DNA of 35,044 nt from Candidatus Altimarinota bacterium (GTDB taxonomy: Bacteria > Patescibacteriota > Gracilibacteria > BD1-5 > UBA6164), in contig SAAG01000006.1 of the NCBI GenBank assembly GCA_010119095.1, positions 1 through 35,044 of the forward strand, read 5' to 3'. Made by a program: the position numbers and the translations under genes. Positions 788 through 20,647 of the stretch are shown here, in pieces. The notes beneath the pieces are model-generated. The model was given only the letters and a program-made list of their open reading frames with translations, was not told the origin of the DNA and ran no database searches. Each line of letters starts with the position of its first letter. The stretch's first letter is position 1.

Positions 788-1066
788 TTACAAGAATAAT
801 ATTTCTTCTTCTTCCATTGCAGGTTGTCAGTATCTTATGACTTTGTGAAAGTCCGCAGGACTTATAGGTATTATCAAAATACTATCTGCTCAAGTAAATT
901 GTACAGCAAATTTTTCATCTATTTCTCTTTTTATTATATTTAAGATTCTTTGACTATTTTTTAGTTCAAATACACTGTATTGAATTCTTCTTCAATATTT
1001 TTTTAATAGTTTTCAAAACTTTGTTCTAACTTTATCATTGTGTATATCATAGCTGACTATAAGCAT
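788..1066 (-). CDS. cas2: CRISPR-associated endonuclease Cas2
   Basis: A 92-residue ferredoxin-fold protein that starts MLIVSYDIHNDKVRTK, with the conserved first-strand aspartate (YDI). It continues with RRIQYSVFEL, the typical second strand of Cas2, and ends with PISPADFHKVIRYGQPAM. Length and motifs match Cas2. Together with Cas1 it forms the integrase complex that inserts new spacers next to the leader. It follows cas1 by 23 bases in the same direction, so cas4, cas1 and cas2 form one transcription unit. Several glycines are UGA codons, for example in KLLKKYGRR. Confidence 0.93.
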
Positions 1067-1089
1067 AATAGTGTATTAAATAGTAAAAA

Positions 1090-2052
1090 TTATTTTATCT
1101 CATATTCTGGGAAATGCTCTCTTCCCTTCATGAAGAATTTGTAATAGTCTTTGATAAAATAAAACATCTCATCTTTATTTCACATAATCTCTTTTAAAAA
1201 TATACTTGTGTATTTTTTACTTAGTTTCCAATCAAGCACATATTGTCAATTTTCTAAATGAAAATCATTCTCATTTACTTGTTTTAGGTTATATGCCTTT
1301 AGTAATGCTCTATCAATTATTACTCTAAAAGGTTCCATCAAGTCTAAAGCTAGTGATTTTCTCTGGTACCAAGTTCTATGGTAAACTCAATAATAGTTAT
1401 CAAAACCGTAAAGTCTAAGAAGTGCTTCTATAAAGTGAAATAGATAGGTATATCATATATCAAGTAGTAGATTTTTTACATCACACTTTGTTCTTGGAGC
1501 TCTTCTGTACCAGCCAATTTCTCTGAAATAACTTGAAAAATATATTTTTGACACATTTCATTCATAACCCAATAGACTTTCATAATTGGTAGTTCTAGGT
1601 ATTTTTGCTATTATTTCTTTTGTTTTTTCAATTTCTTTTTTTAATACTTCACTTTTATCTCGTATATTTTTAAGTAAATTTAACTGATTTCTAGTTTTTA
1701 ATAATACTATTTCTTTAGCTATTTCAAGCATTTCTTCTTCTGTTTTTTCATATTGTTTCTTTCTAAGTATGAAGTTTCATTCTGTTTCATTTCATATAAC
1801 TAGATATGGTAATAGATTTTTTTTCATCAAAACTACAGTGATTCAGAAATCCATAAATTTCCTTATAAGTACACTTGTGATAGTTGTTTCTCAAATAAGA
1901 AAAATAGCAAAAATTTTGTGAAGTGATACTTTTGTTTTTATCACATTTTGTTCTTTGATAACCAGATTATCATTTTCAAAATTGATATTTTTTGTATCAA
2001 ATGTTTCTATAAACAAAATTTGTTTTTCATCAAAATCTGGGAATTGAAGCAT
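1090..2052 (-). CDS. cas1: CRISPR-associated endonuclease Cas1
   Basis: A 320-residue Cas1 of the type V-A branch. The N-terminal beta-domain reads MLQFPDFDEKQILFIE and ends in IGETTITSVLIRKFMDFGITVVL, the usual 'lL.hgI.vvf' region. The helical catalytic domain has the metal ligands in LLGYEGNVSKIYF (Glu), GVYHRTGYQRK (His) and LALDLMEPFR (Asp/Glu). The ATG at 2052 starts 13 bases after the cas4 stop. An in-frame TTG at 2073 would add seven residues (MNNLYTF) and overlap cas4 by 8 bases, so the start is open. It is part of the cas4-cas1-cas2 operon; no catalytic residue appears to be missing. Confidence 0.9.
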
Positions 2053-2065
2053 AAAAGTGTAAAGA

Positions 2066-2650
2066 TTATTCAAATAAACTTAATTGTGGATAAACTTCTC
2101 AGATATAACAGTCACAGAGCTCTTTATAAATGCATTTAAGGCACTTTTGATTGTTTTGTGACCAGTTTGGTTGTAATAAATCAAATTTCTTGTATCTTGA
2201 GATTATTTCTTTAAATTTTTCTATTTCTTCAAATTTAGGTTTATTTATACGATATGTTTTATTGTCTTGCATACTGTAAAAAGCTAGTTCTTCTACTTTA
2301 TATCACATTTCTTGTAGACAAATCATTTGTCACCAAAGTTGATATTTATATCCTTGATAAATCTTGTCTATCTTATTTTTTCTCTCAACAAGTTTTCATT
2401 CACTTATATAAAATAAGTCAATCTTGCCTGCTATACCCCACTCTTCACTATATACACTAAGTCATTGCAGTACACTTTTTCTAGTTGAATAAGTTTTTTG
2501 ATCGATAGATTCATGTGCTATAGTTCATGCAATTTGAACCTCTTCTTGATACATACTTTTATCATAGCTATCATACAGATTATGATAGTAAATTGACTTT
2601 GGGCAGAAGATAAAGTCGTTTAATGTTGAAAGTTTGATATATGATTCCAT
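2066..2650 (-). CDS. cas4: CRISPR-associated exonuclease Cas4
   Basis: A 194-residue RecB-family nuclease with the full Cas4 signature. The first iron-sulfur cysteine is in NDFIFCPKSIYYH, the catalytic histidine in GTIAHESID, aspartate in GKIDLFY and the E-x-K pair in KLVERKNK. A QxxxY-like segment follows, and three more cysteines lie in KCLKCIYKELC. Cas4 trims prespacers and fixes PAM-side orientation for Cas1-Cas2. The last residues, PQLSLFE, match the canonical beta-sliding-clamp binding pentapeptide QL[SD]LF. The codon before EVYPQ is UGA and is read as glycine; in the standard code this tail would be lost. It is preceded by a terminator at 2663-2702, so it likely has its own promoter. 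Confidence 0.9.
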
Positions 2651-2662
2651 AGTTTTTTACAT

Positions 2663-2702
2663 AAAAAAATATGTTACTGAAGTAATTGTAACATATTTTT
2701 TT
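2663..2702 (-). terminator. Intrinsic terminator between the relE-type toxin and cas4
   Basis: A perfect 15-bp inverted repeat (AAAAAAATATGTTAC and its complement) encloses a 10-base loop and has A and T runs at its ends, so it could work in both directions. On the minus strand it follows the toxin gene ending at 2723 and precedes cas4 at 2650. It should separate the toxin-antitoxin transcript from the adaptation operon. Confidence 0.8.
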
Positions 2703-2722
2703 GAAAAAGTATAAAAAATTAT

Positions 2723-2980
2723 TTACTTATAAATATCTCATCTGTATCATATATCTAAGATATGAAAAGTTTTTTCATCTATTTTTTGTAAAATAATTCT
2801 AATATTTCAAATTCTTATTCTATGAGTTGCTGGATAAAAATCAATTAAAGACTTTAAATTATTCCCTAAGTTTCAGTTATTTTTGTATGTTTTTAATTTT
2901 TTTAATATTCGTTCCTGGTCTTGGTTTCATAGCTTTAAAAACTCTTTTTCTCAAATTTTTGTAAAAATAAAACTATACAT
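2723..2980 (-). CDS. RelE/ParE-family toxin
   Basis: An 85-residue RelE-superfamily toxin. It starts MYSFIFTKIGEKEFLKLG, the usual 'f.k...Kdl.kL' helix, then KSLIDFYPATHRIRIGNIRIIL and ends HILDIGYRGDIYK, the typical terminal strand with the 'gyRgdiY' motif. Glycines in IGNIR, IGYRG and KIGEK are UGA. It begins 8 bases after the Phd-like antitoxin gene and forms a second module with it, distinct in antitoxin type from the one at 259-724. Position between cas12a and cas4 is unusual. Toxin activity is inferred from the family. Confidence 0.8.
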
Positions 2981-2988
2981 GATTAATA

Positions 2989-3255
2989 TTAAATTGCTAA
3001 ATTTGATAATCCACTATCTACTGATTGTTTGTACTTATTTTTAAGTTTTATTGCATTTCTTTGCATTTCAAAATCTTCTAATAAGTCAATTATATTTTCA
3101 TACTCTGATGCAGACATAATAACAGCATCTAATTTATTGTTTTTCAAAACTCATATTTTATCTATTTCATTATTTGAAATTTTAGATAAATATCTACCAA
3201 AATTTTTTGAAATAACTGAACTTGAAACAAGTTCTTCTGTTGTATAAGTTACCAT
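2989..3255 (-). CDS. Phd/YefM-family antitoxin
   Basis: An 88-residue protein with the Phd/YefM layout: ELVSSSVISKNFGRYLSKI (DNA-binding dimer part), then KIGVLKNNKLDAVIMSASEYENI, which matches the 'v.knn.p.avlis..eYe.l' core, and a helical tail that would cover the toxin. It is directly upstream of the RelE-like gene. Antitoxins of this family bind their own promoter and neutralise the toxin. It lies 82 bases downstream of the cas12a stop on the same strand, with no obvious terminator between, so read-through from cas12a is possible. Confidence 0.8.
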
Positions 3256-3337
3256 ATACTTATAATTAAGAGTAAAATATTGTGTAAAATTATATGTAAT
3301 ATATTACTCTATTTATATCGTTTTGTCAAAAGAAAAT

Positions 3338-6300
3338 TTATTGAGTTTTTTGAGTGAAGTTGTCCCAATCGATATCACTTACATATAAATCGGGTTTTTC
3401 AAAAATATTTTTTATTCTTTCAATCATAATAATTCATTTTCTTGCAATATTATAAGCTCAATTTGCATCAGCATTATAATCTAAACCTTGAAATCAATCT
3501 TTACTATGATAATTACAAGCTGGACAAATTATATAATCTAAAGCATTTTTTGTATCTGAATTTCTAAGTTGTAAAAGCAAGTTGAATTTTTTAGTTAGTT
3601 CTGAAAAAGAAAATCATTTTAAAACTTTAATTTGTTCATTTATATTTCATTTTAAATCTATATTCTCAAATATTCTTTTCAATTCCTCAGTTATATTTAT
3701 ATTATCAATCTCTTTTGTTAAAGTATTATATTTAAATCTTGAAAAATTACTATTTACTATAAAACTTGTTTTATTTGATTTTTGTTTAGTTTTTTTATCT
3801 TGTTCCATTTCATAAGAAAAAATAAACTTTTTTCCATCGAATTTTATATTTATTTTTTCAAAAGCCTTTATTTGTTTTTCTTTTGTGTCAGAATTTGAAA
3901 TATATATATTTTTTCTAAATCCACAACAAGGACAAGTTGTAGAAGTGTAATTTGCTCTTGTATAAAACATAATTCAAGATTGTTTATAGTTTGCTATATC
4001 TTGATAATCATTCACTTTTGGAACAAGTTGTAAAGCTTTTAAGTTTCATAAAACTTCATCATCTCACTTGTCTTTTTGTGTTAAATAATTCAGTTTTTTA
4101 GCAAGTGCTAGTTCTAATTTTTGATAAATTTGTTTTTCTATTTTTTGTCTTCATCTTTTAAAACCTTGATTTAAATCCTCAAAAACAATAACTGCATTAT
4201 GTTTTGTAATAAGTTCTGCTAATTTATTTATAACTTGAGAAATATAACCATTTTTTAATTCTTTGATATTTTCTATTTCTCACCAACTCACTCTTGCATC
4301 TTTTCTTGATAATTCTATTTTTTCAAGTTTTACAAGATAATTCACTCAATTTATCTCATTTAAACTTCAAATATCATAAATCTTTCAAGTTTTGTCAATA
4401 ACTGAATAATAAGCCAAATGTTTTTCTCATCTGTCAATTCAAATAATTTTTATATCTTCATTTTTGTTTAAATATTCATTTATCATTTTATTAAATCAAT
4501 AACTATCTCAAGTATTTGCATTTAAAGTTATTGATAAATGAAGCATTGTTTTATCTTGTCAATATCTTCTATGGTCTAAAACTTCTTTTCAAGATTTATC
4601 TAATTTAGTTTTTAATTTTTCAGTTTTTTCTCTAAAAAATATTTCTGCTCATCAGCTTAATTTTATCACAAGATTTTCAAGATTTTTTTTATCAAAAAGT
4701 AATTTGAAATATTTTGTATGAATATTTTCTTTACTTCAAGCTTTTTTAAACTCTGAAAAGTCTTTATTATAAATTTGAAATAAATATAAATCAGAAGATT
4801 TTACTTTTTCTTCAATAAAATCGGAATTTATTTTTGAGAATTGTAATTTATAAGTTTTCTTTTCTATATCATCATAAAAAGTAGGTAAATCAGTATAATC
4901 TGTATTTTTAATTTTCTCTAAATCAAATTCATTTTCATAAGTTGCTATAAATCATCTTTTATAACACTCTATAATTTTTTTTAATTTTTCAGGATCAAAT
5001 TTTTCTCACTTTTCTTTACTTTTTTGAAAAATATCAAATTCTTCTTTAATCTTTTTTAATTCAGGAGTGATTCAATATACTTCTTTTTTAGAGTTTGAAA
5101 AAGCAAATCTTGGTAATTGTCTATAAACATTATTTAATTGTTTATAATTCATCTTTTCATAAAAATCTCAGCTTTCATATTTATAATTATCAAGAATTTT
5201 ATTATTTTTAAAAACTCATAAATAAAATTTATCTTCTTTTTTCAAAATAATTCATAATCTCTCTTTTTCTTTGTCTTTATCCCAACCAGTTAAAAATTGA
5301 GAATTATTGAAATTTAGTTTAAATTTATCAGTTTGAATTTGTTTTTTTGTAACAAAATTTCTTACTAAATTATAATTTTTCCATATTTCAAAGTCTTCGT
5401 AATAAGCAAAAAAATCATTATAAAAATTGTTATCAGTTTCTAAATCCACTTTACTTTTTCCTTTTTCTAAAGCAAAATATTTAGTCATTTTATAAAGTGA
5501 TAAAACACTATCAAAATAATTTTTTATAGTTTCAACTTGAATTTCAGTTTTTTCAAATTTTTCTCAAAGTAATTTTTCAATTTTAGAAGTGTATAAATTT
5601 ATATCACTAATATTTTTTTGAAATTCATTAAAAAATATATGCAAGAAATTTTTATATAAACTTTCTCACTCTAAAACAATATTTTCTGAAATATAATTAG
5701 CTTTAAAAATATCTTCTAATTTTTCATATTTTATTTTCTCAAAAGCATTTTTTAACTCTTCAAAACTCACAAAATCTTTTATTTCTCATTTTTCAAAACC
5801 TTCTTTCAAGATATAATCCCAACTTGCAAAAAACTTATTTGAAATAGTATTTATTGAAACTTTTGATAAATAGATTTTATCAAGTTCAAAACTAGGATTA
5901 TTTTTTATAAAATTATTTATTATTTTTTCTGCTTCAATAATTTTAAATTTATTTTTTTCTAAACTATTTTTTACAAAATCAAGTAATTTTTCATCACTTT
6001 CTATCTCATCTATAAAAGCTATTTTTTCTTTGTCTGAAAGAATTTGTTTATAAAGTAGTTTAAATCTAGGAAATTTTATATCTTTTGAATTTGATTTATT
6101 TTGATTTTGTTTAAATAAATTTATTTTTTCATTTATTCATTGAATTTTATTTCAATTTTCAAGAGAATATCATCATAAAATTTTGTTATAATTATCAATT
6201 CAATCTTGAAGCAAACAAGAATTATAAAAATCTAATTCAAAAGCTTGTTTTTCTTCTTGTGAAAAATTTTGTGATATAAAATCAGAAAAATTATTTTGAA

Positions 6301-6934
6301 ACCTTTTAAAATCTTCTAAATTTTTTATAAAAGTTATAAGATTTTCATCAATTGCTCTTGTTGCAACTGCTCAAGCTCTTCAATCTTCAGAATAAAAGTT
6401 TTTTCTTGATTCTTTGAAATTTGAAAAATAAGTAAAAAATCTATCGAATTTTTTGAATAATTCTTTTTGTTCAGGATAAAATTCTCACATCAAATCTAAA
6501 ACTTCTTTTTCATTTAAAACATCAATTCATCATTTTTTAAAAAAACTATATTTTTGTTTCCATTCATTTCATTTTGATTCAAAAAAACTTACTAATTCTT
6601 TTTTTAGAATTTTAGAAGCTTTTTCAAAATCTTTTTGTAAAGTTTTATTTTTTTTATTTTCTGGAGTTTTATTTAGTTCAATATAGGAATTATAAAAATT
6701 ATCTATTTCATTTAAATATCATTTTTCTAAAGATTGTTTTACAAATTCTCTATGTAAAGAATCAAAGAAAACTTTAATTTTATTATAATTTTCTTCAACT
6801 TCTTTATCTTTTTGTATAACTCAATCTTTTTCAAGACTATTTAGAGTTTCTCAAACAGGCTTCAACTCAAACCTTAAAGTTTTACTTAATTCATAAAGAT
6901 TTGTAAAATCTTCAAAACTATTTTTTGATGTCAT
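3338..6934 (-). CDS. cas12a: CRISPR effector nuclease Cas12a (Cpf1), UGA-recoded
   Basis: A 1198-residue Cas12a, a little shorter than well-studied members (about 1230-1310). It opens with the family start [19 protein letters not shown] (WED-I). The RuvC domain is intact: D834 in IGIDRGEKHLAYY, E919 in [12 protein letters not shown] and D1156 in NADANGAYNIARKG. The Nuc-domain arginine is present in QLRNSDT. Four cysteines (TCPCCGF and CPACNYH) would bind zinc between the RuvC parts. It is guided by crRNA and cuts double-stranded DNA, and it should also process its own array. Many essential glycines, including DRGEK and DANGAYN, are UGA codons, so the gene is adapted to table 25 and would be shredded in a standard-code host. 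The ATG at 6934 lies at the family start. Confidence 0.96.
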
Positions 6935-15148: not shown

Positions 15149-15669
15149 TTAAAATGGATATCTTTGTAGAGAATCATAAATATAGTTTTGTTCTTTTATT
15201 GTTTTATTGTTTAAAGCATTTTCAAACAACTCACTTCAAAGTTTTTTTCTCAATAATCATATATCATAAATTGGTATTTTTGTTAAATCAGGAATTATTA
15301 AAATTAACTCATATAAAGTTTTTTTATACTCAGGTTCTCAAATCTCATTTTCTAAATTAACTAGTATATTTCTTAATACAGTTCAAAACTGCGATAACCA
15401 ATCAATATCACTCATTCAACTTGTTGTTAGAGCTTCTAAATAATCATAAGGATATTTTCTAGATAATTCTTGATGTAATTCTGAATCAAGATTTTTAAAA
15501 GGAAAGTTTTATTCCAAAGATAATATATCAAGTCTATTCATCTATTTTCAACTATGCTATTAATCTTTTCTGATATTTTTTCTCTAATTGTATCTCAATT
15601 AATTGTTTCTTGTTGTTGTTTTTGTAAGGATAATTCATATAATTGAACTAGGTTTAATCATCTACTCAT
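15149..15669 (-). pseudogene. Broken gene behind the Ile-type attenuator
   Basis: Two overlapping frames look like pieces of one gene. The first starts at ATG 15669 (MSRGLNLVQLYELSLQ, then INGDTIREKISEKINSIVENR) and, with UGA as glycine, drifts into unlikely sequence until TAG at 15436-15438. The second starts at an ATG at 15541 (MNRLDILSLE), meets an in-frame TAA at 15509-15511, then runs on sensibly (NFPFKNLDSELHQEL to DSLQRYPF) to TAA at 15149. The likely reading is a gene of about 170 residues hit by a frameshift near 15541 and a nonsense change at 15510. Two small genes joined by ATGA overlap are the alternative, but UGA is not a stop here. I do not recognise the product. Confidence 0.5.
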
Positions 15670-15691
15670 TTTAAAAATTGTTTTAAGCAAT

Positions 15692-15854
15692 AAAAAAACT
15701 CTCTTAGATTTCCTAAGAGAGTTTGGATTTTTTTGTATTACAAAATAGCTCTTAGGTTTTTATCTAGAAGGATAATAATAATAAAGCTAATTTGTGTTTG
15801 TGTAAACATATACTTTTGTTTAGTTATATTTATGTTCTAGATTATATTTAATTT

Positions 15855-15867
<13 letters not shown>
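15692..15867 (-). promoter_or_regulatory. Ile-type transcription attenuator with its promoter
   Basis: On the minus strand, in order: TTGACA (15867-15862) and TATAAT (15846-15841) with a 15-base spacer; a leader peptide start at 15809; segment 2, CCTAAGAG (15756-15749); and a terminator (stem 15724-15713 with 15707-15696, then a T-run). Segment 2 is exactly complementary to CTCTTAGG, the 5' arm of the terminator and its flank, so the two structures exclude each other. The -35 lies inside the last codons of leuA. This is the layout of enteric amino-acid attenuators. The controlled gene starts at 15669 and is broken. Confidence 0.75.
15738..15809 (-). CDS. Isoleucine-rich leader peptide
   Basis: A 23-residue open frame, MFTQTQISFIIIILLDKNLR, ending AIL and a TAA. 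It has a run ISFIIIILL with four consecutive Ile codons (ATT, ATT, ATT, ATC) placed immediately upstream of the first pairing segment. Ribosome stalling on these codons when charged Ile-tRNA is scarce would free CCTAAGAG to pair with the terminator arm. The role is inferred from layout; the codon run and pairing are seen directly. Confidence 0.75.
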   Translation of the reverse strand: MFTQTQISFIIIILLDKNLRAIL

Positions 15868-17576
<1,709 letters not shown>

Positions 17577-17600
17577 AAATAATTTATATTAAAATTTAAA

Positions 17601-17786
17601 AAACTCTCTTAGTTTCCTAAGAGAGTTTGTATAAAGTAATTGGTTTAAAATTAATTTACATTGAAAAGACTCTTAGGGTTTATTCCTAGAAGAAGAGTCA
17701 GAAGTAGTAAATTAGTTTTATTTATCATAATTATTTTAAAAAATTAAATAATTAAAGTGATTATATGTAAAATTTTAATTTGTCAA
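17601..17786 (-). promoter_or_regulatory. Leu-type transcription attenuator of leuA with its promoter
   Basis: On the minus strand: TTGACA (17786-17781) and TATAAT (17765-17760), 15 bases apart; leader ATG at 17728; segment 1 with CTTCTTCTAGG over the last Leu codons; segment 2, CCTAAGAG (17677-17670); and a perfect 12-bp terminator stem (17628-17617 with 17612-17601) followed by T's. Segment 1 can pair with segment 2 (one mismatch), and segment 2 with CTCTTAGG in the terminator region. leuA starts 25 bases past the stem. This gives a complete 1:2, 2:3, 3:4 switch. Confidence 0.85.
17651..17728 (-). CDS. leuL: Leucine-rich leader peptide of leuA
   Basis: A 25-residue open frame beginning MINKTNLLLLTLLLGINPKS and ending NVN before a TAA. 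It holds seven leucines in eight codons (TTA, CTA, CTT, CTG, ACT, CTT, CTT, CTA), covering four or five different Leu codons. The last ones overlap the first pairing segment, as in enteric leu leaders. A start-to-stop frame this biased, directly in front of a leucine-biosynthesis gene, is unlikely to be chance. Confidence 0.85.
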   Translation of the reverse strand: MINKTNLLLLTLLLGINPKSLFNVN

Positions 17787-17788
17787 AT

Positions 17789-18157
17789 TTATTTTTTATT
17801 AAAATCTAAGATATCTAATACTTTTGGTTTCATTTCTAAAACTATTCATCATACAGTTGGCTTAAATGTGTTATAACTAGTTCAAGTTCTAGTTTTTGAA
17901 AAACAAAAAATATCAAAATCTTCATCATTAAGAATTTTTTTGACTTCGTCAAATTTGCTTAGATCAATTCATTTAATGACATAGATTTTATTGTTTTTTG
18001 TATCGTTAATATAAATGAAATCAGCTCAATATTCTAATTTCTTGTGTTTATTTTCTTGATATTCTTGTATTTGGTCTTTACTACATATTCCATTTAATAT
18101 GGATGATAATTTATCAATTGATAAACTACTTATTGTAAATCAGTTATGTGCATTCAT
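17789..18157 (-). CDS. Unknown protein controlled by the Ile/Leu/Val-type attenuator
   Basis: A 122-residue soluble protein that I do not recognise. It starts MNAHNGFTISSLSIDKLSSIL, has a charged middle (DQIQEYQENKHKKLEYGAD), an FIYINDTKNNKIYVIKGID strand pair, and ends KPTVGGIVLEMKPKVLDIL. There is no signal peptide or membrane segment. It is preceded, 19 bases beyond the stem, by an attenuator whose leader peptide is packed with Leu, Ile and Val codons, so a role in branched-chain amino-acid supply or sensing is a fair inference, but nothing in the sequence itself names it. The leuA promoter -35 touches its stop codon. Confidence 0.7.
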
Positions 18158-18176
18158 AATAAAATAATTAATAAAT

Positions 18177-18373
18177 AAAAAAACTCTCTTTGGATTTCCC
18201 TAAGAGAGTTATAAAATTCGTAAAACTATTTAATTAATTTAATTCACGAAAAGTATCTCTTAGGTATTTTCCTAAAAGCACGACAATCACTAGAATTAAA
18301 TTAAATTTATTAAACATAAATATCTAATAATTAAATAGTAAATTTATATTATTTATAGTTTTAATATTGTCAA
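18177..18373 (-). promoter_or_regulatory. Ile/Leu/Val-type transcription attenuator with its promoter
   Basis: On the minus strand: TTGACA (18373-18368), a TAATAT -10 (18351-18346) with a 16-base spacer, leader ATG at 18317, segment 1 CTTTTAGG directly after the control codons, segment 2 CCTAAGAG (18264-18257), and a terminator stem (AACTCTCTT with AAGAGAGTT) followed by seven T's. Segments 1 and 2 pair along all eight positions, with one G-U. Segment 2 also pairs with CTCTTAGG in the terminator. It has the same switch design as the two attenuators to its left. Confidence 0.82.
18234..18317 (-). CDS. Branched-chain (Leu/Ile/Val) leader peptide
   Basis: A 27-residue frame starting MFNKFNLILVIVVLLGKYLR and ending FRELN before a TAA. 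The block LILVIVVLL holds nine consecutive branched-chain codons (four Leu, two Ile, three Val), resembling the multivalent ilv leaders of enteric bacteria. The block ends exactly where the first pairing segment begins. Confidence 0.8.
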   Translation of the reverse strand: MFNKFNLILVIVVLLGKYLRDTFRELN

Positions 18374-18380
18374 ATATTTT

Positions 18381-19286
18381 TTATTTACATCATTTTATCT
18401 TATCTTTATCAATTTGCTTCATAAGCTCTGAAAAGTAATAATCTCATCAATCAGGAGCAATTATAGCTCATTTTAGTCATTGTTTTCACTCAAGATATCT
18501 TTTTGTTCATGATAAAAATGCTCATGATGATATACCGTTAAAATACCCTTCCCCAATAAAATCATTTACTCATGGGATTGCATCTTCTAGAAATGTTACA
18601 TCTATTACTTCATCTATTAAGTATTTATAGTCTTTGTAAAATTGTCATATGTTTCTTATGATGTTATAATTTTTTATTCCTTCAACTTTATCAAGTGCAT
18701 TAATTGCAATTATTTTTATGTCTGGATATCTTTCTTTTAAGTATTTCGCTGTTCAAAGTAGAGTTCCTGTTGTCCCAAGTCATGCTACAAAAAAATCTAG
18801 TTTTCATAGTTTTTTCTCTATATGTGGTCAAGTAAGATGATAATGAGCTTCCATATTGTCTATATTTCAAAATTGATCAGGTAAATAATATTTATTAGGG
18901 TTTTCTTTGTACAATTTATTTCTATGATCTATTGCATCATCAGTTGCTCCAGGTACTTCTATAAGTTCTGCTCAATATGATCTAATGAGCTTTTTTTTGC
19001 ATGAAGCAGTATTTTCTGGAATTACTAATTGTACTTTTAGGTCAAATAAGTTTGAAAGGTATGCTAGAGATATAGCAGTGTTACCACTTGATGCTTCAAG
19101 AACTATTTTACTTTTATCCAACTCCCCTTTTTCAATTGCTCTTTTAAGTATCCAATATACGGTTTTTACTTTGATACTTCCACACATATTAAACTTTTCT
19201 AAAAGTGCATATACTTCATTGTTTTCTATATGATTGATTCTTGTTATAGGTACTTCCATTAGCAGTTTTTCTATATCTAGTTTCAT
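18381..19286 (-). CDS. Cysteine synthase-family PLP enzyme
   Basis: A 301-residue PLP enzyme of fold type II. The Schiff-base lysine lies in NMCGSIKVKTVYW, the substrate loop in EASSGNTAISLAYL, and family motifs DQFGNIDNMEAHYHLTGPHI and FVAGLGTTGTLLGTAKYL are present. A phosphate-binding glycine loop is seen in GLGTTGT. These match O-acetylserine sulfhydrylase and cystathionine beta-synthase relatives. It starts 4 bases after proB, so both are on one transcript. The usual GSVKDR is GSIKVK here, so substrate choice is uncertain. About a dozen conserved glycines are UGA codons. Confidence 0.88.
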
Positions 19287-19290
19287 ATTT

Positions 19291-20352
19291 TTATATATTA
19301 ATAAAATAATTTGTATGTATTACGATTTTTCTCTCTTCTGAATATTTATCAATTTCATTACTATCAATTTTAGCAATTCAATATCAAATGCAACAGCCTT
19401 CCATATCAAAAACTCAAACTACATCTCATTTTACAAATTCTTTTTCTACTTTTTCAACTCAGATTTCTAGTAGAGATGCTCTTTTACCAGATTTAAGTAA
19501 ATCTGCGATTATAGTACTTACTTGTAACTTCCCTGTAGGTACAGCTCATGCTTTAAGCCATTTTCTTAGAGAATCTACTTTTTTTTCTTCTATAGATTCA
19601 AATACAGTTCATGGATTAGAATTATTATAGATTTTTTCTATTGTATCTTTGTTTTTTCAATTTGCTATGTACATCTTGATTCATAAATCCATCATCATCT
19701 TTGCAGTTTTTAGTTTACTTTCCATTCATCATTTTCACATACTTGATTTATCTACTCACACCATAGATAATATACTTTTATCGATTTTTTCAACTTTTTT
19801 TATAAGATTTCAATTTGGAAAACTATCATATAGTCAATTGATATTGGATAATATGATAAGTTTGTCGGCTCATATCATTGCTGCAAGTAATGCTCAAAGT
19901 TCATCGTTATCTGAAAAATCTAGTTCTTCTACTGAAAGTACATCATTTTCATTGATAATTGGAACTATTCAAAGTTCTAAACTAGTAAACAATACTTTTT
20001 TAATAGAATTGTATCTTTCCCTATCACTAAAGTCTCTACGAGTTAATAATGCTTGAGATATGATTATATCGTATTTATCAAAATATCTTGTATATGTATC
20101 CATTAATCTTGTTTGTCATATACTTGAGAATATTTGTCAGCATTCATCTTTTGTAAGTCATTTGATAGTATTAGTTCACATCTTTTTCTTTCACATAGCA
20201 ACTGCTCATGAACTTACAAGAACTACTTTTATTCAGTTATTTTTTAATTTAGATACTTTTAAAGCAAGATTATTTATAATTTCTTCATCTATTCAATTTT
20301 CTCAAAGCAAGACATTGGATCAAATTTTTATTACATATATTTCTTTATTCAT
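19291..20352 (-). CDS. proB: Glutamate 5-kinase with PUA domain
   Basis: A 353-residue ProB. The kinase domain starts EIYVIKIGSNVLLGENGID, with KVVLVSSGAVAMG, IINENDVLSVEELDFSDND and KLIILSNINGLY, followed by GKGGMKSKLKTAKMM. The C-terminal PUA domain begins near SLRKGLKAGAVPTGKLQVS. ProB phosphorylates glutamate as the first step of proline synthesis and is normally inhibited by proline. No proA or proC is visible nearby. It begins 4 bases before the cysteine-synthase-like gene and is preceded by a short leader frame and terminator (20476-20594). Motif glycines are almost all UGA. Confidence 0.93.
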
Positions 20353-20475
20353 ATTTATTTTAAATTAGTAATATTTAATATATCAATATGTGTTGATATA
20401 ATGATAAGAGAATGCTTTATTAAGTGTTATAAATATATATAAAAGATTTTAATAACTATATATTTATTAATAAAA

Positions 20476-20647
20476 AAATCATTTTCTTTTTGAAAATGAT
20501 TAAATTTTTTAGTAATTTTTAAATACTGTTAAAATACCATTTTCAATAAATAGTTTTTTAACGGACAAGGTAATGCTAAAAATGTATTTTTCATAGATAA
20601 TTTAATTAGTATTGATTTTATTATATTTAAATTCTTTTTGTTTTCAA
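20476..20647 (-). promoter_or_regulatory. Possible Pro-type attenuator upstream of proB
   Basis: On the minus strand: TTGAAA (20647-20642), TATAAT (20625-20620) with a 16-base spacer, a leader frame from 20594 to 20529, and a perfect terminator stem (GAAAATGATT with its complement, 20477-20501) followed by T's, 120 bases before proB. The segment GAAAATGGT near the end of the leader can pair with CATTTTC in the terminator. The layout resembles the three branched-chain attenuators, but control codons are few. No other gene is seen in this 317-base interval, apart from a weak hairpin (20663-20697) at the lysS end. Confidence 0.45.
20529..20594 (-). CDS. Possible leader peptide of proB
   Basis: A 21-residue frame starting MKNTFLALPCPLKNYLLKMV and ending in F and a TAA. 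It contains Pro-Cys-Pro encoded CCT TGT CCG; CCG is rare in such an AT-rich genome. With only two prolines the case for proline-specific control is much weaker than for the branched-chain leaders. Confidence 0.4.
   Translation of the reverse strand: MKNTFLALPCPLKNYLLKMVF

Follow-up and report, generated by a model that had tools for sequence, protein, structure and literature searches.

What does a run of nine branched-chain codons in a short reading frame say about the gene behind it, when that gene resembles no described family? This question arises in the window (the whole stretch of 35,044 nucleotides that was analysed), where such a frame precedes a gene for a 122-aa protein. The preliminary description had proposed a leader peptide for isoleucine, leucine and valine that controls a protein for the supply, sensing or uptake of these amino acids. 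Gene regulation in the uncultivated, genome-reduced bacteria of this group is little known. Because a leader peptide reveals which amino acid governs its gene, every such switch is a direct lead on the function of unassigned genes, the 122-aa gene included.

The window's genome (G000; 1.53 Mb, 220 contigs, 92.5% complete) reads TGA as glycine (code 25); reading with table 11 broke up the 122-aa gene and its neighbours. Six glycine codons of the 122-aa gene are TGA, whereas leader A contains none and is unaffected by the code. On the minus strand, proB came first, followed by a cysteine-synthase-like gene and then by units A (122-aa gene), B (leuA) and C (a frameshifted gene). Elsewhere in the window (788-6934, minus strand), this TGA = Gly genome carried a Cas12a system that includes Cas4, Cas1 and Cas2 and whose effector (1,198 aa) contained 45 TGA codons read through.

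Leader frame and alternative folds of unit A

The features of unit A and the genes upstream of it were as follows (G003 and G004 are genomes of the same genus).

19291..20352, minus strand: proB, glutamate 5-kinase (profile matches)
18381..19286, minus strand: cysteine-synthase-like PLP enzyme, the gene upstream of unit A (profile matches)
18346..18373, minus strand: promoter-like TTGACA-N16-TAATAT of unit A (consensus match only; leaders B and C are preceded by sites of this kind)
18234..18317, minus strand: leader A ORF, 27 codons, MFNKFNLILVIVVLLGKYLRDTFRELN, stop codon TAA (frame reading; conserved in G003 and G004)
18273..18299, minus strand: nine I/L/V sensor codons, TTA ATT CTA GTG ATT GTC GTG CTT TTA (codon count)
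18271..18278, minus strand: strand 1, CTTTTAGG, starting inside the last sensor codons (folding)
18257..18264, minus strand: strand 2, CCTAAGAG, pairing with strand 1 or strand 3, still within leader A (folding)
18199..18210, minus strand: strand 3, AACTCTCTTAGG (folding)
18176..18210, minus strand: terminator 3:4 with U run (terminator scan, covariance model)
17789..18157, minus strand: 122-aa gene under unit A, no family assigned (ORF reading)

Residues 7-15 of leader A read LILVIVVLL. Among the window proteins (8,547 residues), the longest I/L/V run was 7 and only two runs reached 6 or more; an equally or more strongly biased 8-residue window occurred in 0.32% of 5,000 random window-protein segments. 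The sensor favoured codons that this genome seldom uses (GTG and GTC, each 6% of Val codons), and codon sets as rare were drawn at random in 2.2%, 4.4% and 12% of cases for units A, B and C, respectively. The sensor codons (18273-18299) overlapped strand 1 (18271-18278) and thus lay at or before it, as attenuators require. The terminator-like stem-loop ended 24 nt upstream of the 122-aa gene. Promoter-like sites as a class were not above chance (161 seen, 173 expected in the same scan).

When strand 1 was free, the RNA up to strand 3 folded into 1:2. Masking of strand 1 gave the 2:3 antiterminator, and a ribosome placed at the stop codon of the full RNA gave the 3:4 terminator. The outcomes were the same for unit B; unit C gave the same 2:3 and 3:4 outcomes with a weak 1:2 stem and strand 1. 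At equilibrium, 3:4 of unit A (−13.2 kcal/mol) was slightly stronger than 2:3 (−12.8 kcal/mol), and the switch must therefore be kinetic. The folding z-score of the unit A RNA was −3.9 against shuffles.

The run of nine I/L/V residues, the alternative helices and the terminator before the 122-aa gene bore out the attenuator build proposed for this leader. Unit A is very probably a ribosome-mediated transcription attenuator that senses charged isoleucine, leucine and valine tRNA. The leader, strands, alternative folds, conservation and family-wide match of leader and gene were computed; stalling and termination would proceed as follows. Transcription would start just upstream of leader A, and a ribosome would translate the 27 codons; that the leader is translated is suggested by its conservation. 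With branched-chain aminoacyl-tRNA scarce, the ribosome would stall at LILVIVVLL and cover strand 1, strands 2 and 3 would pair, and the polymerase would enter the 122-aa gene. With a good supply, the ribosome would reach the stop codon, 2:3 would not form, the 3:4 terminator would, and transcription would end. On this model of starvation-dependent read-through, the 122-aa protein would be made under branched-chain starvation.

Related units in the window, the genus and the order

Three related units lay in a row: A before the 122-aa gene, B with a Leu leader before leuA, and C with an Ile leader before the frameshifted gene. Their leaders were related in sequence and differed in I/L make-up. 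A further, probable leader preceded proB.

17651..17728, minus strand: leader B, MINKTNLLLLTLLLGINPKSLFNVN (frame reading, covariance model R3)
17596..17628, minus strand: terminator of unit B (terminator scan, R3)
15855..17576, minus strand: leuA, 2-isopropylmalate synthase, 573 aa (NF002991, 651.7 bits, cut-off 455)
15738..15809, minus strand: leader C, MFTQTQISFIIIILLDKNLRAIL (frame reading, R3, gene-start scan)
15691..15724, minus strand: terminator of unit C (terminator scan, R3)
15149..15661, minus strand: gene under unit C, split by a frameshift into 15436-15661 and 15149-15415 (ORF reading)
20529..20594, minus strand: probable Pro leader, MKNTFLALPCPLKNYLLKMVF, before proB, with a terminator ending near 20471 (found by eye and gene-start scan)

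The LeuA of unit B had catalytic and regulatory domains and reached the subfamily cut-off, while missing the equivalog cut-off of TIGR00970 (568 vs 697.4 bits). The unit C gene matched no family in Pfam or NCBIfam profile searches. Its frameshift sits at an A/T-rich run and may be a mutation or an assembly error. On the window, R3 found the three units at E ≤ 2e-11 with the next match at 0.043, a gap that is not independent proof, as R3 includes these units. A scan of 27 window gene starts found an amino-acid-run leader with a terminator before the unit C gene, the 122-aa gene and proB; the terminator of leuA, missed here through the tail rule, was found by the other terminator scan and R3. 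The Pro leader (LPCP, with a CCG codon), not reported by R3 on the window, had a counterpart in G004 before proC-proA-proB. The pattern CTCTTAGG-N5-CTAAGAG had no match in its own genome because the loop length varies. Elsewhere in G000, MKNILFTTTWWLITKNNSFSYVFVV preceded trpD (TIGR01245, 262.6 bits, cut-off 199), and an FFFYFYSF leader preceded a 133-aa gene without an assigned family.

Leader A was conserved at the nucleotide level in G003 and G004, which match the MAGs JAQUWS010000083.1 (Candidatus Gracilibacteria) and JAGXIW010000006.1, respectively. G000 and G003 share the core LILVIVVLL; in G004 the core reads LILVVVVTF, and +1 and −1 shifts that offset each other preserve the frame there. 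The leader frame was thus conserved. In G003, leader A followed a cysK-like gene and stood before a 153-aa homologue of the 122-aa protein; an additional 116-aa frame, leader B and leuA came next. In G004, proC-proA-proB and a cysK-like gene preceded leader A, and the gene behind it encoded an Asp/Glu racemase (PF01177, E 8.5e-43; TIGR00035 above cut-off); leader B and leuA followed. The switch was therefore kept while the gene behind it changed. Two side observations concern these loci: the 116-aa frame of G003 (L002, 1330-1680), between the homologue and leuA, had no assigned family, and in G004 (L006, 6530-6923) a Trp-repressor-family gene stood behind leuA with a long palindrome directly upstream.

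Between G000 and G003, dS of leader A was 0.10 (from 18 synonymous sites only) and dN 0.13, against a dS of 0.85 and dN of 0.21 for the 122-aa gene and a dS of 0.91 and dN of 0.07 for leuA. The low dS of the leader indicates that it is held at the nucleotide level, and the low dN relative to dS of the 122-aa gene indicates a real protein under purifying selection. If leader A were instead a functional small membrane peptide with an incidental terminator, its hydrophobic sequence would be accounted for, and some leader peptides do act in trans (PMC7298713). Its synonymous sites were, however, as conserved as the non-synonymous ones, which is expected for constraint at the RNA level; moreover, the residue run follows the cognate amino acid, and no such hydrophobic run occurs in the leaders for Thr, Cys and Pro. 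We consider such a peptide hardly credible. Alternatively, unit A might work as an attenuator whose purpose is to let transcription run on to leuA, and not to express the 122-aa gene. The two genes follow one another in G000 and G003, and leader A can have another gene behind it, but leuA comes with a promoter-like site, a leader and a terminator of its own, and the selection on the 122-aa gene also argues against this arrangement, which we regard as unlikely.

An attenuator of this build was not confined to the genus. Covariance model R1, built from seven close units, had matches at E ≤ 1 in 26 of 40 related genomes, and R2, from 19 units, had matches at E ≤ 0.1 in 47 of 60. Weak matches were often plain terminators: in three inspected sets, reading gave a convincing leader in 12/21, 22/39 and 7/21 cases and none in 9/21, 17/39 and 14/21. 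Covariance models and inspection together yielded about 50 units in 25 of 60 related genomes, plus the window Pro leader; this tally comprises inspected leaders, the seven R1 units and the three neighbouring units (one met twice), and leaves out G045:C1 and G051:C3 as doubtful. The leader before G017:C4:27113 (FYF only) is weak, yet was retained in the models. When the training units carried Leu, Ile and aromatic leaders, the resulting model went on to pick up thrS genes with Thr leaders and a cysK/M-like gene with a Cys leader.

The stems of the seven close units were nearly invariant, and no covariation was obtainable from them. Over 44 units, helices 1:2 and 3:4 covaried in an alignment fitted to this structure (184 both-side cells vs 48.3 in shuffles). 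The 2:3 helix, which was not fitted, was paired in 86.3% of cells over 19 units, and both sides had changed in five of eight pairs; the paired percentage was reached by 1 of 500 shuffles and the number of both-side pairs by 9 of 500. In 17 of the 19 units, no more than 8 of 300 shuffles equalled the RNAduplex energy of 2:3.

Single loci showed further arrangements. Two tandem Leu attenuators preceded one LeuA-like gene in G027 (L096, 636-897). In G010 (L069), DAHP synthase and a LysE-type exporter each had a Phe unit in front, the two units lying close together. In G001 and G002 (L075, L107), similar-looking 148-aa proteins without an assigned family stood behind Phe leaders.

No Rfam family reached its gathering score in the window, the Leu, Thr and Trp leader families included. 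The best weak match of unit A was His_leader (RF00514; 17.9 bits vs a cut-off of 49, E = 9). An aptamer riboswitch or a T-box, in which the amino acid is sensed by means other than translation, can have a similar layout of terminator and antiterminator. Given the absence of Rfam families at gathering score and the runs of cognate codons, in frame from start to stop codon, in about 50 units, the chance of such an element is minimal.

A fixed rule gave each leader the class most over-represented in it, while the expected gene classes were set by hand. Scored were 30 annotated units; 15 further units without a telling annotation were listed unscored, and G017:C4:27113, G036:C3, G036:C1, G041:C7, G041:C6 and the window Pro leader went unscored. 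The leader class agreed with the annotated gene in 26 of the 30 rows, which were picked after viewing and are not independent, since related genomes were included (shuffled mean 8.7, maximum 19 in 20,000 shuffles; in six rows the annotated gene was the second one behind the leader). Another class scored higher in the four mismatches, namely one thrS unit, two Tyr leaders (TYYYLL) and a Trp leader (TTTWWLIT). Leaders of leuA read LLLLTLLL or LLLLALLLL (three genomes), those of ilvA IINIIILL and IIMIII, those of thrS TTTTTIT and relatives, and those of DAHP synthase FFYFFFF and FFFFFF. FFFFFYFYF preceded pheS, YYY prephenate dehydrogenase, CCC a cysteine-synthase-like (cysK/M) gene and PCPFSP proC. 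The pairing of Trp with trpD was found by inspection.

These results also bear on the simplest alternative, that the hairpins serve the upstream cysK-like gene as tandem terminators of the ordinary kind, with the short frame being a chance ORF. The hairpins are intergenic, chance I/L/V-rich frames are not rare in an A+T-rich genome, and many weak model matches were plain terminators. Against this stand three consecutive units whose related leaders differ in I/L make-up, conserved synonymous sites in leader A, a leader identity that follows the downstream gene across genomes, and the rarity of run leaders over terminators in the window (3 of 27 gene starts by automatic scan, plus leuA). Such a coincidence is very improbable, and we retain attenuation as the very probable function of unit A.

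The 122-aa protein and its metabolic context

The 122-aa protein matched no recognised family, in agreement with the preliminary description. There was no Pfam family up to E = 1, the best NCBIfam match had an E of 0.03 and gave no family, and the best match to PDB sequences had an E of 0.73. The best PHROGs matches (E 0.0094, and 0.00077 for the G003 homologue) were not taken as family matches; phage and IMG/VR searches gave no relative. The AlphaFold models were of low confidence (pLDDT 61) or poorer (G003 homologue, pLDDT 56), and Foldseek with the former returned insignificant matches only (best E 0.25). Many of these were PII-like; all were insignificant on this model, and nothing was read into them. 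In an all-vs-all phmmer comparison of unassigned proteins behind leaders, notable pairs among the matches listed were the 122-aa protein with its 153-aa homologue (G000_A122-G003_A153) and two prephenate-dehydrogenase-like proteins (G033_272-G009_348); a weak pair among them was G000_F133-G012b_128 (E about 0.002).

The protein occurred in two of 77 genomes of the order, its own included, and the single homologue (G003) also adjoined leuA. LeuC (PF00330) was sought in 12 genomes and IlvD (PF00920) in 15, and each turned up in G012 only. Neither was detected in G000 to G004 (91-99% complete), while both were present in 14 of 14 control genomes. The leuA gene was nevertheless retained under a Leu leader in G000, G003 and G004, and, judged from these genomes, appears to stand without the rest of the leucine pathway. 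Why it stays under leucine control in a genus without detectable LeuC and IlvD is a question that these genomes raise. A published Gracilibacteria genome is described as missing nearly all amino-acid synthesis and as depending on external peptides (PMC6851277).

Since LeuC and IlvD were undetected in the genus, control of de novo branched-chain synthesis by leader A is doubtful, and starvation sensing or salvage fits better. The attenuation part of the original proposal thus stood. A role of the 122-aa protein in branched-chain supply, sensing or uptake was not established: leader A precedes a racemase in G004, the undetected LeuC and IlvD make a part in de novo branched-chain synthesis unlikely, and nothing pointed to uptake. 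Our best, still tentative, suggestion is that it may be a soluble protein of amino-acid salvage or of the starvation response. We further hypothesize, as something possible rather than probable, that a single attenuator architecture, its sensor codons interchangeable among at least eight amino acids, serves Gracilibacteria as the main sensor of amino-acid starvation. After the loss of branched-chain synthesis, the same switches would turn on salvage or host-facing genes of no assigned family, the 122-aa gene being one, and a given switch could stay in place while its gene is exchanged.

Comparison with known attenuators

The ilvGMEDA, ilvBN and leuABCD leaders of enterobacteria combine a run of Ile, Leu and Val codons with 1:2, 2:3 and 3:4 hairpins and a U-run terminator. 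Unit A resembles them in its codon run, three alternative hairpins and U-run terminator before the gene. It differs in belonging to another phylum, in reading TGA as glycine and in lacking an Rfam leader match, and also in having a gene without a family, Leu, Ile and Pro units alongside, and a genus without detectable LeuC and IlvD.

In Staphylococcus aureus, the ilv-leu operon, which starts with ilvD, has a leucine-rich attenuator; this shares with unit A an Ile/Leu-rich leader and a terminator with an alternative fold, but controls a branched-chain biosynthesis operon, whereas unit A precedes a lone gene of no family (PMC5794164). Candidate leader peptides and attenuators were described in Actinobacteria before ilvB, trp, trpS, leuS and cys genes, together with a LEU element. 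In that study, actinobacterial leuA, from a different phylum, carries this pseudoknot element instead of a Leu leader, unlike here (PMC1262725). The His leader peptides before hisS and hisZ of bacilli are like the thrS and pheS units in preceding an aminoacyl-tRNA synthetase gene, and differ in sensing His only and in phylum (PMC2965389). The same 2010 survey stated that, until it added Firmicutes, Proteobacteria and Actinobacteria were the only groups in which leader-peptide systems had been shown (PMC2965389). A literature search, which covered little of the subscription journals and preprints, found no work on leader peptides or attenuation in Gracilibacteria, Patescibacteria or the Candidate Phyla Radiation. 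The mechanism is thus classical; new, as far as these searches go, are its occurrence in this lineage, its extension to at least eight amino acids within one architecture, and its use before genes of no assigned family.
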